Below are positions 6,780-34,767 of a DNA stretch of 49,115 bases, piece by piece (position 1 is the stretch's first letter; each line of letters opens with the position of its first letter). The stretch lies in contig MNDG01000151.1 of the NCBI GenBank assembly GCA_001914815.1, positions 7,669 to 56,783 of the forward strand. Reading direction: 5' to 3'. The stretch is from Acidobacteriales bacterium 13_2_20CM_55_8. Lineage in GTDB: Bacteria > Acidobacteriota > Terriglobia > Terriglobales > Acidobacteriaceae. The translations under genes and the position numbers were made by a program. The notes below the pieces were generated by a model. That model saw only the letters and a program-made list of their open reading frames with translations. It did not search any database and was not told where the DNA came from.

Positions 6780-6912
6780 AGCATCCTCCTTCTGATTGGA
6801 CGTTTCCCGAGAGAGGGGCAACGTACACGCAGGCGGGGCGGACGTCAAGTGAGAGTTCGTGGATTTCCGTGCTCCTCGAACTCTTGGGATACCGCGTGGA
6901 AGTTGGCGCAGA

Positions 6913-6947
6913 GACTAGAAACCAGAAACCGGACACCCGAAACTCGA
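6913..6947. repeat. Intergenic period-7 degenerate repeat array (5 units, NACYNGA)
   Basis: GACTAGA|AACCAGA|AACCGGA|CACCCGA|AACTCGA. Confidence 0.75.
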
Positions 6948-8428: not shown

Positions 8429-9361
8429 CTACAAACTTCGCGCTGCGGCAATGGCATGACGGACATGGCCATTCGCAGCCTTCAACGCCCGTTGAGCTTC
8501 GGCGCGGCTGACCTGTGCTTCTGACATCACCAATGCCAAGGGAATGCTGTTTCCGGACCTTCTAAGCGCCTTTTGCGCGGCTTTTCTGCCCAGGCCGGTG
8601 GTAAGTTGCAGGATTCTCAAGGCGCGATCCGCTAGCTTTTCATTTTTCTGATGTAGGTTGACCATCAGATTGCCATAAACGTAGCCCAGGCGAATCATGG
8701 CTCCGCTGGAAAGCATATTCAGGACCATCTTTTGCGCGGTGCCCGCTTTCATGCGCGTGGATCCGGAGATGACCTCGGGACCAACCTCAGTAACGATTGC
8801 CAGGTCCGCGGCTTTTTCCAGGGGAGAATTGCGGTTGCAGGTGACGGCGATGGTCTGCGCCCCATGCCGGCGAGCGTAGGCAATGGCGGCCACCGTGAAT
8901 GGAGTGCGTCCGCTGGCGGCGATGCCCACCACTACATCATTTTTCCCTGGCTTTTTCTTCGCGATCTCGCGCTCCCCGAGCTTAGGAGAGTCCTCGTCGG
9001 TTTCTACTGCCGCGCCCAGAGCTCTTAACCCTCCGGCGATGATGAACTGCACTGTTTGGCGATGAGTGTCGAATGTAGGCGGACACTCGGCGGCATCGAG
9101 TGCAGCGATGCGTCCGCTCGTGCCAGTGCCGACGTAAATGAGACGGCCGCCTCGTTGCAGAGCAGATGCGATGATGTCGATGGCACGTGCGATCTGTGGC
9201 AGGACACGCTTTACCGCGGCAGCGACTCTGGCATCTTCGGAATTCATGATGCGCGCCAGTTGCAGCGATGGTTTCAGATCCAGGTCCGCCGAAGCCGGAT
9301 TCGCTTTTTCAGTGACGAGACCGACTAAGTCGGTGCGTTGCTTTTTTACTGAACCTCTCAA
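8429..9361 (-). CDS. murQ: N-acetylmuramic acid 6-phosphate etherase (TTG start overlapping upstream stop)
   Basis: IYVGTGTSGRIAALDAAECPPTF; VVGIAASGRTPF; STRMKAGTAQKMVLNMLSS; start/stop overlap TTGA with upstream gene. Confidence 0.95.
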   Translation of the reverse strand: MRGSVKKQRTDLVGLVTEKANPASADLDLKPSLQLARIMNSEDARVAAAVKRVLPQIARAIDIIASALQRGGRLIYVGTGTSGRIAALDAAECPPTFDTHRQTVQFIIAGGLRALGAAVETDEDSPKLGEREIAKKKPGKNDVVVGIAASGRTPFTVAAIAYARRHGAQTIAVTCNRNSPLEKAADLAIVTEVGPEVISGSTRMKAGTAQKMVLNMLSSGAMIRLGYVYGNLMVNLHQKNEKLADRALRILQLTTGLGRKAAQKALRRSGNSIPLALVMSEAQVSRAEAQRALKAANGHVRHAIAAARSL

Positions 9362-10590
9362 CGGCCTGCCTCCAGCGCTTCGACGACCGCATCATGAAAT
9401 TTTGGACGGATCTCTTGAATGGCTTTATTGCTGGCATCGGGCCAGGTTCGATTGGTAAGCAAGGCGACTGAGAGCTGGCGTTCAGCATCGATCCACAGTG
9501 AGGTGCCGGTGTAGCCGAGATGTCCGAAAGAATGCGGAGAAAAATATTTTCCGGACTGCGAGGGGGAGGAAGGCGTGTCCCATCCAAGCGCGCGAGAGGT
9601 ACCTGCGGGTGACGGTTCGCGGCGGGTGAAGACGGCCAGCGTTTCCGGATGAAGGATGGGTTGTCCTCCGTTCAACATGGCATTGGCAAAGACGGCGACG
9701 TCGTGTGCTGGGGCAAATACGCCGGCTTGAGCGGCCACGCCTCCCAGCACACTGGCATTCTCGTCATAAACTTCTCCTTGAATGATGCGGTGGCGGAAAG
9801 AGCGGTCATCGACTGTGGGCAGAATCGAAGGTCGCCAAGCCGGAGGCGGATTGAAAGCTGTGTGGGCCATGCCCAGTGGGCCGAATACCTCGCGTTGGCA
9901 GAATCGGTCAAGAGGTTCGTCCGCAATGCGTTCGAGCGCAATTCCAAGAATGATAAAACCGATGTCACTGTAGGTGGCCTGGGTGCCTGGATCCGCTACT
10001 AACGGCATCACAAAGGCCGCATCCAGCAACTGATCTTTCGTAGGAGCTCTCCGGAACAGTTTTTCATATGCCGGCAACCCCGACGAATGGGCCAGCAGCA
10101 TGTGCAAAGTTACTTCGCGGCGGCGCTCATCTTGTCCAGCGAATTCCGGCACAACGGAAACGACATGCATTTCCAAATCCAGCAAACCGCGCTGGTAAAG
10201 AATCATGGCGACGGTAGTAGTGGCTACGACCTTAGAAACCGAAGCCAGATCAAAGATGCTGGCGCTGGTCACTTCCGGAGACTGCGGATCATATGTAAAG
10301 CTGCCAATGGCCTTCAGTGCGACCAGTTTTCCTTGACGTGTTACCGCGACCGAGGCAGCGGGGAAAGCGTGCTGTGCAATGGCTTGTTGCAATACCTCAA
10401 AGGCAGGCGAGAAGACCGCGTCCTGCTGCTCGTAAGCAGGAGCAGGAAAATGCGCGGAAGTCCTGGATGCGGTATTCAGGGAGGAGGGACTCTCTGACAA
10501 AGGTTTAGTTTGTTCGATGTTCGGTTTATAGCAAAGTTCGCAGAGCGGGTAAAGGTGACTTTGCGAAACCCAGCAATTAGCATTTAGCAC
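9358..10590 (-). CDS. Class C beta-lactamase-like serine hydrolase (candidate cytoplasmic AmiE-type amidase); start uncertain
   Basis: SxxK motif DLASVSK, YSDIGF, FGHLGYTG; no evident signal peptide; the annotated N-term lies inside the period-7 repeat, so the true start is probably downstream. Confidence 0.85.
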   Translation of the reverse strand: MLNANCWVSQSHLYPLCELCYKPNIEQTKPLSESPSSLNTASRTSAHFPAPAYEQQDAVFSPAFEVLQQAIAQHAFPAASVAVTRQGKLVALKAIGSFTYDPQSPEVTSASIFDLASVSKVVATTTVAMILYQRGLLDLEMHVVSVVPEFAGQDERRREVTLHMLLAHSSGLPAYEKLFRRAPTKDQLLDAAFVMPLVADPGTQATYSDIGFIILGIALERIADEPLDRFCQREVFGPLGMAHTAFNPPPAWRPSILPTVDDRSFRHRIIQGEVYDENASVLGGVAAQAGVFAPAHDVAVFANAMLNGGQPILHPETLAVFTRREPSPAGTSRALGWDTPSSPSQSGKYFSPHSFGHLGYTGTSLWIDAERQLSVALLTNRTWPDASNKAIQEIRPKFHDAVVEALEAGR

Positions 10591-10681
10591 TTAGCATCTG
10601 GCCAAATGGGGCCTGGTGCTCGATACGCAAAAAATACCATGGGCTGGCTAAATGCTAACTGCCAAGTGCTAAGTGCCGAAT
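10575..10681. repeat. Long inverted repeat made of two opposed period-7 arrays (ANYTRGC family) around a ~44-bp centre
   Basis: Left AATTAGC|ATTTAGC|ACTTAGC|ATCTGGC (10575-10602); right GCTAAAT|GCTAACT|GCCAAGT|GCTAAGT|GCCGAAT (10647-10681), whose reverse complement is the same family. Confidence 0.8.
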
Positions 10682-10858
10682 TTTCAAGCCGCGTCAAAAC
10701 AGTATTCGGATAAACGATGAATCAGTGGTACACACGGTACCCCCTCCTTGAGGTTCTTGAGTAATCGGGCGGCGGTTGTGTAGAGTCGGGATATCCGCAT
10801 AATCAGGGCAAATTCGCGAATCCAGCGGTCCGCATCCTGCCTGCTCGCTACCGCATTT

Positions 10859-13210
10859 TTGTTCAGCAGCCTCATTTTTTCTGCTAGTGCGCACGCGGCC
10901 ACGGCCGGCAAACCAGGTCCCCCAAACCGGCTCGGTGTCCTCGATTCCATCGTGCAGAACGCAATCCGCCAAGGCCAGATGCCGGGTGCAGTGTTGTTGG
11001 TGTGGCACAACGGGCAGGTGATGTACCGCAAGGCGTTTGGCAACCGGTCTCTCGAACCGCGACGCGAAACGATGACGCTGGATACGATTTTCGATCTCGC
11101 CTCTCTCACCAAAGTGGTGGCTACAACGACCGCAATCATGCAACTGATGGAGCGCGGCCAGGTGCGATTAAATGATCCCGTGGCCAAGTACATTCCCGAG
11201 TTCGCGCAAAACGGCAAAGAAGATATTACGGTCCGCAATTTGCTTACGCATTATTCCGGTCTGCGGGGAGATCTCGACTTGGCGCAGGCTTGGCAGGGAC
11301 ACGATACGGCGTTTTCCATGGCTTTCGCCGAAACGCCAGCCATCCCCCCGGGTTCCCGTTTTCTCTATAGCGATATCAACTTCATTGTCCTGGGCGCGTT
11401 GATCGAACGCGTGTCCGGAACATCGGAGGATGACTACTGCCTGAAGAACATCTTCACTCCGTTGGGGATGACGCATACTCGCTACCTTCCGCCAGCGGCT
11501 TGGAAGTCCGCAATTGCGCCAACTGAGTATGACGAGCAGGGCAAGATGTTGCACGGAATTGTACACGACCCCACCGCACGCCGTATGGGAGGCGTTGCCG
11601 GACACGCGGGGTTGTTTTCTACGGTAGGAGATTTGTCGAAATTTGCCCAGGCTTTGCTGAAGGGCAGCGCGGTATTGCCTGCGCTGATGGTGGAGAAGAT
11701 GACTACACCGCAGCAGCCGCCCACATCTGACAGTCTGCGTGGCTTTGGCTGGGACATCGATTCTCCTTTGTCGAGTAATCGCGGCGAACTCCTGCCAGTA
11801 GGTTCGTTTGGGCACACGGGATGGACCGGCACTTCAATTTGGATCGATCCCACCACCCGCACTTACATCATCTTGCTCACCAATTCCATTCATCCGCGCG
11901 GGAAGGGAAATGTGATTGCGCTGCGCGCGAAGATTGCCACTGCCGTAGTCGCGGCCCTGCCACTGACCGTCAGTGAAAAAGAACAGCTGCGATTGAAAAG
12001 TATTACCGGCTATAACGAGACCCAGACTGCGGCCCGCCGATTGTCCGTACGCAATGGCTCGGTGCAAACCGGAATCGACGTCTTGGAAGCGCACAACTTC
12101 GACGTGCTGCGAGGTGCTACCGCCAAGAACAAAATCGGGCTGCTGACCAATCAGACCGGAGTCGACTCTCAGGGACGCCGCACCATTGACGTCCTGGCCG
12201 AGGTTCCCGGAGTTTCTTTGGACGCCATATTCAGCCCCGAGCACGGGGTCACTGGCACCCTCGATACCACCGAGGTAGGGAACTCGAAAGACGCTGCCAC
12301 CGGAATTCCGGTGTACAGCGTCTATGGCGCTACCGATGCTGCCAGACGTCCCTCGCCCGAGGTTCTCAAGAATCTGGACGCGGTAGTGGTGGATATTCAG
12401 GATGCAGGCGTGCGTTTCTACACTTACGAAACTACTTTAGGTTATTTTTTGGAAGCCGCGGCCAAGGCCGGAATTGAGATCATCGTGCTGGACCGTCCTA
12501 ATCCCATCACGGGTTCGTTCGTGCAAGGGCCGATGCCCGATCCCGGTCGCGAGAGTTTCGTGAACTACGCCGCCGTGCCGGTGCGTCACGGCATGACAAT
12601 CGGCGAATTGACTCAGATGTTTAACGCCGAGCGCAACATCAACGCCCGGCTGCAAGTCGTGGCCATGGATGGATGGATACGCGGCGACTGGTTTGATTCG
12701 ACGGGCGTGAACTGGATCAATCCCTCACCTAATCTGCGCAGCCTCACCGAAGCCACGCTTTACCCCGGGGTGGCTCTGATTGAAGGCACCAACGTTTCGG
12801 TTGGGCGCGGAACCGACACTCCCTTTGAGATCGTGGGCGCTCCGTGGATCAATGGCCGCGAACTGACGCAGTATTTGAACGCCAGAAATATCTCCGGCGT
12901 TCGTTTTGTGCCGGTAACCTTCACTCCCAACGCCAGCACTTATGCGGCCGAAAAGTGTGCCGGGGTGAACATCGTTGTTACGGACCGCAATGCCTTGGAC
13001 GCTCCTCAACTGGGCATCGAATTGCCGTCGGCTTTACACAAACTGTATCCCCAACAATTTCACATGGAACGCATGATTGAGTTGCTGGTGAATCAGACGG
13101 TGTCTGACGCCATCTCTCAAGGACAAGATGCACGTCGCATTGCGGAGGACTGGCGCGAGCCGCTGGAGAAATTCCAAAAGCTGCGACAGAAATACCTAAT
13201 CTACAAGTAG
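10859..13210 (+). CDS. Exported fusion: N-terminal class C beta-lactamase-like domain and C-terminal DUF1343/NamZ-like (GH171-type) domain; true start probably upstream of 10859
   Basis: DLASLTK, YSDINF, FGHTGWTG; then LLTNQTGVDSQGRRTIDVL..FSPEHGVTGTLD..DIQDAGVRFYTYETTLGYFLEAAAKAGIEIIVLDRPNPI typical of DUF1343. Confidence 0.9.
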   Translation: MFSSLIFSASAHAATAGKPGPPNRLGVLDSIVQNAIRQGQMPGAVLLVWHNGQVMYRKAFGNRSLEPRRETMTLDTIFDLASLTKVVATTTAIMQLMERGQVRLNDPVAKYIPEFAQNGKEDITVRNLLTHYSGLRGDLDLAQAWQGHDTAFSMAFAETPAIPPGSRFLYSDINFIVLGALIERVSGTSEDDYCLKNIFTPLGMTHTRYLPPAAWKSAIAPTEYDEQGKMLHGIVHDPTARRMGGVAGHAGLFSTVGDLSKFAQALLKGSAVLPALMVEKMTTPQQPPTSDSLRGFGWDIDSPLSSNRGELLPVGSFGHTGWTGTSIWIDPTTRTYIILLTNSIHPRGKGNVIALRAKIATAVVAALPLTVSEKEQLRLKSITGYNETQTAARRLSVRNGSVQTGIDVLEAHNFDVLRGATAKNKIGLLTNQTGVDSQGRRTIDVLAEVPGVSLDAIFSPEHGVTGTLDTTEVGNSKDAATGIPVYSVYGATDAARRPSPEVLKNLDAVVVDIQDAGVRFYTYETTLGYFLEAAAKAGIEIIVLDRPNPITGSFVQGPMPDPGRESFVNYAAVPVRHGMTIGELTQMFNAERNINARLQVVAMDGWIRGDWFDSTGVNWINPSPNLRSLTEATLYPGVALIEGTNVSVGRGTDTPFEIVGAPWINGRELTQYLNARNISGVRFVPVTFTPNASTYAAEKCAGVNIVVTDRNALDAPQLGIELPSALHKLYPQQFHMERMIELLVNQTVSDAISQGQDARRIAEDWREPLEKFQKLRQKYLIYK

Positions 13211-34696: not shown

Positions 34697-34767
34697 GGAA
34701 ATCTGAAAATCAAAAATCAACAATCAAAAATCGTACTTCGTAAATCGTACTTCGTAAATCGCAATTC
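34697..34767. repeat. Intergenic period-7 degenerate array (about 9-10 units, RNANWTC; one 8-bp unit)
   Basis: GGAAATC|TGAAAATC|AAAAATC|AACAATC|AAAAATC|GTACTTC|GTAAATC|GTACTTC|GTAAATC|GCAATTC. Confidence 0.85.

Follow-up and report, generated by a model that had tools for sequence, protein, structure and literature searches.

The intergenic inverted repeat found in a 49,115-nucleotide stretch of DNA from Acidobacteriales bacterium 13_2_20CM_55_8 (the window) is most plausibly a non-autonomous, MITE-like and non-coding member of a class of mobile elements that encode S23p, a protein of the 23S rRNA intervening sequence (IVS) family; we put the probability of this reading at roughly 0.7. On the best reading of the data, a complete member of the class would be a unit of ~430 bp in which one S23p gene (PF05635/TIGR02436, a four-helix-bundle protein) lies between inverted arrays of about four 7-bp repeats. 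The feature had been singled out in a first-pass annotation of the window and is real but was undervalued there: the likeness of its arms to the inverted arms of S23p/IVP cassettes was missed, as was the homology of spacers among a dozen loci.

The element has two opposed arms of a degenerate heptad family, each with four GCANTTR units, and TRF calls both arrays at period 7. Read as its reverse complement, the right arm is GCACTTA-GCACTTG-GCAGTTA-GCATTTA-GC. Five units had originally been assigned to this arm; four of them stand, and the fifth (GCCGAAT, to 10681) is a degenerate edge. The contiguous degenerate 7-mers are neither a microsatellite nor a CRISPR, as had been noted, the latter having identical repeats and unique spacers of similar length. 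The spacer of 44 bp is non-coding, with no S23p ORF between the arms, and for this copy its resemblance to a core found in other elements (CATTACGGGCYGGTG...GAGGG) is by eye only and not significant (p = 0.46). The arms themselves have the form seen around S23p genes, i.e., inverted period-7 arrays of about four units.

The element lies between protein genes and not within a 23S rRNA helix. Its neighbors are the divergent cell-wall salvage genes already described, one beta-lactamase/PBP4B-like and the other a beta-lactamase–NamZ fusion, but a tie of the element to cell-wall genes finds no support in the wider comparison, in which about 90 scored elements of the source genome (G000) and a sister genome (G001) are spread over many different intergenic gaps. 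A bidirectional terminator or structured RNA between the two divergent genes is very hard to credit, even though the predicted hairpin is stable (RNA stem-loop of −41.7 kcal/mol, z = −3.3, stronger than dinucleotide shuffles): the window element sits between 5′ ends, the elements have no clear bias to convergent gaps, and positions 10300–11000 of the window gave no Rfam match.

Table 1. Parts and neighbors of the window element (positions in the window), and S23p loci with arms of period 8 or 9 (locus identifiers)
Feature	Position or loci	Strand	Source
Left arm, four heptads GCAATTA GCATTTA GCACTTA GCATCTG (+GC)	10573..10602	+	sequence, TRF
Spacer/core CAAATGGGGCCTGGTG...ATGGGCTG	10603..10646	.	
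Right arm, four heptads (reverse complement), GCTAAAT GCTAACT GCCAAGT GCTAAGT GC	10647..10676	-	sequence, TRF
Flanking gene, beta-lactamase/PBP4B-like (context only)	9358..10497	-	
Flanking gene, beta-lactamase domain fused to exo-N-acetylmuramidase NamZ (context only)	10859..13210	+	
Period 8 arms, AAGGTTTC	L131, L170, L178, L182, L205		
Period 8 arms, GTAATTGG	L261, L274, L277		
Period 9 arms, TTAGCGGGG	L200, L207		
Period 9 arms	L126, L204		

Periodicity at 7 bp is a property of the genome as well as of this site. Among strong tracts in the window at lags 3–15, four have period 7, one falls at lag 14 (a harmonic), two at lag 15 and one at lag 3. A scan of 636 kb of the source genome (a 2.77 Mb draft, 67% complete) gave 45 period-7 tracts, with loci picked around array hits so that the densities are not genome averages; a Markov shuffle gave 11, and shuffled DNA therefore does not reproduce the periodicity, an outcome that the first-pass annotation had named as decisive for its claim. 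Each lag that is not a multiple of 7 gave 6–10 tracts, a baseline made up largely of assembly N-runs, and only lags 14 and 21 were likewise raised. Pattern counts, which are genome-wide, revealed many more arrays, with 60 + 55 matches to GCANTTRGCANTTRGC on the two strands and 3 to the backwards pattern; the second outcome that the annotation had named as fatal to its claim, a lack of other arrays, thus does not hold either. The same pattern has a patchy distribution, being present in 20 of 61 relatives. GCANTCA and GCANTTR units are mixed inside single arrays, and the window also holds period-7 tracts of other heptad families of this genome, of AATCAAA/TTCGTAC type at 34698–34761 and of CAGAAAC type at 6909–6943.

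The layout of the arrays is strongly directional. Array pairs in the source genome are convergent in 25 cases and divergent in 1 (15 and 0 in the sister), typically with a spacer of 40–57 bp, and none of the about 90 elements scored in the two genomes lies within a predicted gene, though 86% of the DNA is coding. About a dozen elements have in common a directional core, CATTACGGGCYGGTGRTGGTTCCGTCAGAG...GAGGG, and thus are copies of one ancestor rather than independent slippage products. Like MITEs, these mini-elements are multi-copy, short and non-coding, with inverted ends. Units of the same rank in the two arms match only slightly above chance at the variable positions (p = 0.055 in the outer register). 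Perfect pairing of the stem thus seems not to have been kept; the preserved features are the type of repeat and the inverted layout. Cruciform formation or protein binding, both suggested earlier, is possible as a sub-step.

In the sister genome, which is about 86% identical, the element is at the same place as in the source genome at most compared loci; because these loci were chosen for their array in the sister, they give no measure of the frequency of differences. Orthologous arrays have gained or lost units in exact 7-bp steps and changed at variable positions, with the layout kept. The window site itself, for which a comparison between sister strains had been proposed, holds a different heptad element in the sister, CGTCGTTGGTCGTTCGTCCTTGGTCGGTGGCC/AACGACGAACGACCAACAGCCAACGACGG, and we identified no duplication of the target around the window element. 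The flanks of two canonical copies (L024, L072) had no match in the sister's draft assembly. At another locus (L103 9940–10150, contig C114 of the sister) the sister has two overlapping GCANTTR elements in a row with different cores and the source genome has one, which could be due to insertion, nested or in tandem, or to a deletion from the source genome.

The exact 7-bp steps could be taken to mean that these are heptameric simple sequence repeats born by polymerase slippage and immobile, with the opposed arms kept for cruciform formation or regulator binding. Heptamers are indeed the commonest long repeats of this kind in many bacteria (PMC4679880, PMC4692102), but we regard slippage as an improbable explanation of the whole, since it cannot yield convergent pairs (40 against 1) or cores in common. 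Neither can it yield arms that frame half of S23p genes, units that track the protein tree or 5-bp target duplications, which are described below.

The connection with S23p came through a sister unit. In both the source and the sister genome, GCANTCA arrays frame a gene of the 23S rRNA intervening sequence protein family; in the window's own genome this cassette is on contig C121. None of the S23p loci examined has exact GCANTTR arms, and the link to the window element runs via GCANTCA. S23p genes are widespread, being present in 45 of 61 acidobacterial relatives and in many phyla among the loci. In the named collection, the relatives of the source genome's S23p mostly bear the labels Acidobacteriaceae/Terriglobia, which suggests an acidobacterial source. 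In the 61 relatives, 61 period-7 tracts lie in the 41 kb within 300 bp of PF05635 genes, compared with 13 in the more distant 161 kb; periods 5, 6 and 9–12 are nearly missing. We added 80 loci from other GTDB species, including Myxococcota, Thermodesulfobacteriota, Planctomycetota, Chloroflexota, Cyanobacteriota, Bacteroidota, Verrucomicrobia, Pseudomonadota and others. Reverse-complement period-7 arrays are present on both sides of 86 of 172 unique S23p loci (PF05635, S23p/IVP), against 1 of 516 control positions taken from the same DNA, in a sample gathered by homology search rather than at random and with a GTDB scan biased to the NIAEGQ subfamily. A further 10 loci have arms of period 8 and 4 of period 9, with only lags 7–9 represented, and about half of the loci have no detectable arms. 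Among cyanobacterial plasmid loci that were collected separately, arms are found in 10 of 12. The class, defined by inverted period-7 arms around S23p genes and by a unit tied to the protein, is secure.

Dispersed arrays and armed S23p genes are also associated across genomes. The dispersal of GCANTCA is associated with GCANTCA-armed S23p (p = 0.002), and the count of S23p genes correlates with that of GCANTTR (rho = 0.46, p = 0.004). The relationship is not one-to-one, because the corresponding association for GTTTCNA is not significant (p = 0.12), GCANTTR has no exact cassette and one genome, G027, has arrays without S23p. The last, which is 97% complete, has 25 GCANTCA array matches and no PF05635 gene; its arrays could be relics or could have moved without S23p. 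It is most unlikely that the arrays belong to the REPIN type and owe their movement to a Y1 (RAYT) transposase. REPINs, too, are inverted doublets of small size that lie between genes and are linked to a protein gene in single copy (PMC3116915), and 50 of 61 relatives have Y1_Tnp genes, but the counts of these genes are not significantly related to those of GCANTTR (rho = 0.30, p = 0.07) and S23p counts fit better. Moreover, the arms are period-7 arrays, not imperfect palindromes, and they frame S23p.

The repeat unit varies by locus (AGTGGCT, AGTTCTC, AGTTTCN, AGGGAAC, AGCATTC, GATTGNN and others) and follows the protein in three respects: (i) Units resemble each other more as protein identity increases (Mantel rho = 0.33 among pairs of under 60% identity, with 0 of 500 permutations as high). 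(ii) The period changes 7 times on the protein tree, compared with 13.6 times when shuffled (minimum 11), and arms of period 8 or 9 cluster on that tree. (iii) The repeat class changes 47 times, compared with 72 when shuffled (minimum 65). Related proteins in different phyla have units in common, for example GTGACGA/GTGATGA in Acidobacteriota and Chloroflexota. Because unit, period and class all track S23p phylogeny, protein and arm evolve together, and the natural inference from this co-variation is that S23p would recognize its arms. Linkage of a gene to its flanks would by itself give some correlation between unit and protein by descent; repeats as labile as these would be expected to lose such a correlation at 40–60% protein identity. 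A unit, and even a repeat length, that tracks the protein tree constitutes a natural record of protein–nucleic acid co-evolution.

Filled and empty sites in cyanobacterial plasmids provide evidence of mobility. Plasmid C of Trichormus variabilis has an S23p cassette that plasmids of Tolypothrix PCC 7601 and Nostoc carneum lack (L323 compared with L326 and L327), with about 97.5–97.6% identity around it. The empty site reads AAAAAGTAATTAAC and the filled site AAAAA-GTAAT-[cassette]-GTAAT-TAAC, so that GTAAT is duplicated; these 5 bp include the stop codon of the upstream gene. In a second comparison, of Nostoc ATCC 53789 and C052 with C057 and another C052 plasmid, the cassette is at another stop codon, and the target duplication is TTCTA (ATCC 53789 and C057, L325 compared with L330). 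The Trichormus and Nostoc cassettes are 78–81% identical over about 419 bp in unrelated surroundings, and both clear duplications come from one cassette family. The mobility of the S23p class is well supported by these two clean insertion sites. Other pairs lack the cassette on one side with no clean duplication (L314/L339, L318/L337, L322/L336, L320/L332, L334/L331 and L316/L333). The Trichormus insertion is also found in Scytonema, with a left arm two units shorter, and plasmid E of Nostoc C052 has a truncated S23p at the same insertion site. Our statement about stop codons concerns the plasmid cassettes, because the preference of acidobacterial mini-elements is not significant (p = 0.23 with 12 usable tandem gaps, raw median 9.5 bp from 3′ ends).

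A site downstream of a TldD/PmbA-like gene, so named from its sequence, suggests how a cassette could become a miniature. The source and sister genomes both have a full GCANTCA cassette there. In G015 the arms and both ends of S23p are kept and the middle is deleted, leaving AEMKDFRDLHV*HKAHLTN...ASLSLALKVEADRLAG, with an end that reads KVEADRLAG, in place of the intact MKNFRDLQVWQKAHRLT...LASLVRKVEADRRAG. One arm of this remnant includes a GCACTTA unit, a type found in the window. The element at the site is a short inverted heptad array in G002 and G005 and is missing from G004, G007 and G012. Internal deletion of a cassette is thus one route that can lead to an element like that of the window. 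We do not claim an S23p origin for mini-element spacers in the source and sister genomes, because an HMM scan of them for S23p/IVP remnants did no better than shuffles.

S23p, or "four helix bundle protein", has to our knowledge no known function and no known nuclease or transposase fold. S23p matched the Xanthomonas campestris S23p structure (PDB entry 2gsc) at 3.6e-19, and the Xanthomonas protein is a homopentamer (PMC4990558). Arm architecture, co-variation with the protein, presence and absence with target duplication, and internal deletion are established here by comparing sequences. We propose that S23p might bind successive units of its own arms, in DNA or in a transcript hairpin, and might promote copying or integration with help from the host; the length of the arrays would then drift by slippage in 7-bp steps, and non-coding copies such as that in the window would be moved in trans or be relics. 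Whether S23p drives movement of the element stands, in our estimate, at about even odds. In the fuller proposal, a new class of transposable elements would owe its mobility to S23p, which would recognize its own 7-, 8- or 9-bp unit in the inverted arms, integrate with a 5-bp target duplication and leave non-coding miniatures in genomes; this proposal is tentative, and we rate it a little below an even chance.

The cassettes could instead be mobile with S23p as a passenger or regulator (of expression, RNA processing or immunity to re-insertion), an enzyme of the host or of another element doing the cutting and pasting. S23p has no recognizable catalytic motif, and in Coxiella it does not seem to be translated and the IVS stem is a target of RNase III (PMC4990558). 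However, S23p is the sole gene in the unit and is conserved across phyla, and both repeat unit and period track its phylogeny, which leaves a passenger role rather unlikely in our judgment.

The class proposed here shares features with several known systems. The 23S rRNA IVSs of Coxiella and Leptospira, like S23p cassettes, are about 430 nt long, with one S23p ORF and a terminal inverted stem. The Coxiella IVS has 428 nt, a 28-bp stem, an S23p ORF and tandem GACAGAT heptamers, the copy number of which differs among strains (PMC4990558); read with the present data, the 28-bp stem would be four heptads. Unlike rRNA IVSs, the present cassettes sit between ordinary genes, show target duplications and have non-coding miniatures, and their period-7 arms are general and track protein phylogeny; the window element, in addition, has no ORF and is outside rRNA. 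REPIN/RAYT systems (PMC3116915) are the best functional analogy, with short intergenic inverted-doublet elements, each type tied to a protein gene, and co-evolution of repeat and protein. They differ in that S23p is a four-helix-bundle protein and not a Y1 transposase, the arms here are tandem 7-mers, and the S23p gene is enclosed by the arms and travels along with them. Bacterial MITEs are likewise short and non-coding with inverted ends, and are related to a bigger element that has a gene and duplicates its target on insertion; in the present case, by contrast, the terminal repeats consist of 7-bp arrays that drift, and no known transposase is encoded by the putative autonomous partner.

Intergenic heptamer repeats are a long-standing puzzle in cyanobacteria, Xanthomonas and Geobacter. 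The likeness to cyanobacterial heptanucleotide repeats drawn in the first-pass annotation is borne out, in that GCANTTR arrays are 7-bp tandem, intergenic and dispersed, a comparison of layout. Published reports describe heptamer repeats in cyanobacteria, Xanthomonas, Beggiatoaceae and Geobacter (PMC4692102, PMC4679880, PMC2700814). Cyanobacterial STRR, Xanthomonas GGGAATC and Beggiatoaceae TAACTGA repeats are, too, intergenic 7-bp tandem arrays that differ in length among relatives, and those of Xanthomonas also form convergent pairs (PMC4692102, PMC4679880); these reports interpret them as simple repeats, as G-quadruplexes or as sites of regulation and, in the parts consulted, draw no link to S23p genes or to insertion. 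In Geobacter metallireducens, one class of elements likewise has dozens of copies with four heptads each, and another, with five heptads, is drawn as stem-loops; in the text available to us, these elements are read as global regulatory elements and no protein partner is named (PMC2700814). Our search of the open-access literature found no paper that ties S23p genes as a group to heptad arms or to target duplications, and priority is uncertain.

If the proposal holds, these would be among the smallest gene-bearing transposable elements (about 430 bp), and they would often insert at stop codons, a position that spares the host operon. The S23p element class would offer a general origin for ribosomal IVSs, which would become special cases of it, perhaps along with many bacterial heptamer repeats. 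S23p and heptamer repeats would then become one question, namely whether S23p binds its own heptad and moves the unit.

Mobility would also account for S23p genes in unrelated operons (nrdB–nrdA, cas6–cas4, cas10–cmr3), where cassettes are present between nrdB and nrdA or within CRISPR operons and absent from relatives. Such insertions can mislead gene-association searches, and those in CRISPR operons could explain the listing of "23S rRNA IVP" as CRISPR-associated (PMC10910872). In Nostoc edaphicum pNe_5 (L316), nrdB and nrdA are separated by a cassette at 1400–1960 that has AGGGAGT arms, and Calothrix NIES-4105 (L333) has nrdB and nrdA with no S23p cassette. Cassettes inside CRISPR operons, in the orders cas6–S23p–cas4 and cas10–S23p–cmr3, were seen in Anabaena sp. 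90 pANA02 (L322), Pseudanabaena (L321) and Picosynechococcus PCC 7003 (L324); a Dolichospermum plasmid (L336) that is 98.9% identical lacks the S23p gene. Plasmids 1 and 2 of Calothrix brevissima NIES-22 (L314 and L315) have the same S23p cassette in a 3.6-kb homologous stretch of 97.5% identity, where it adjoins a phage-type integrase, and this stretch occurs without the cassette in other plasmids.
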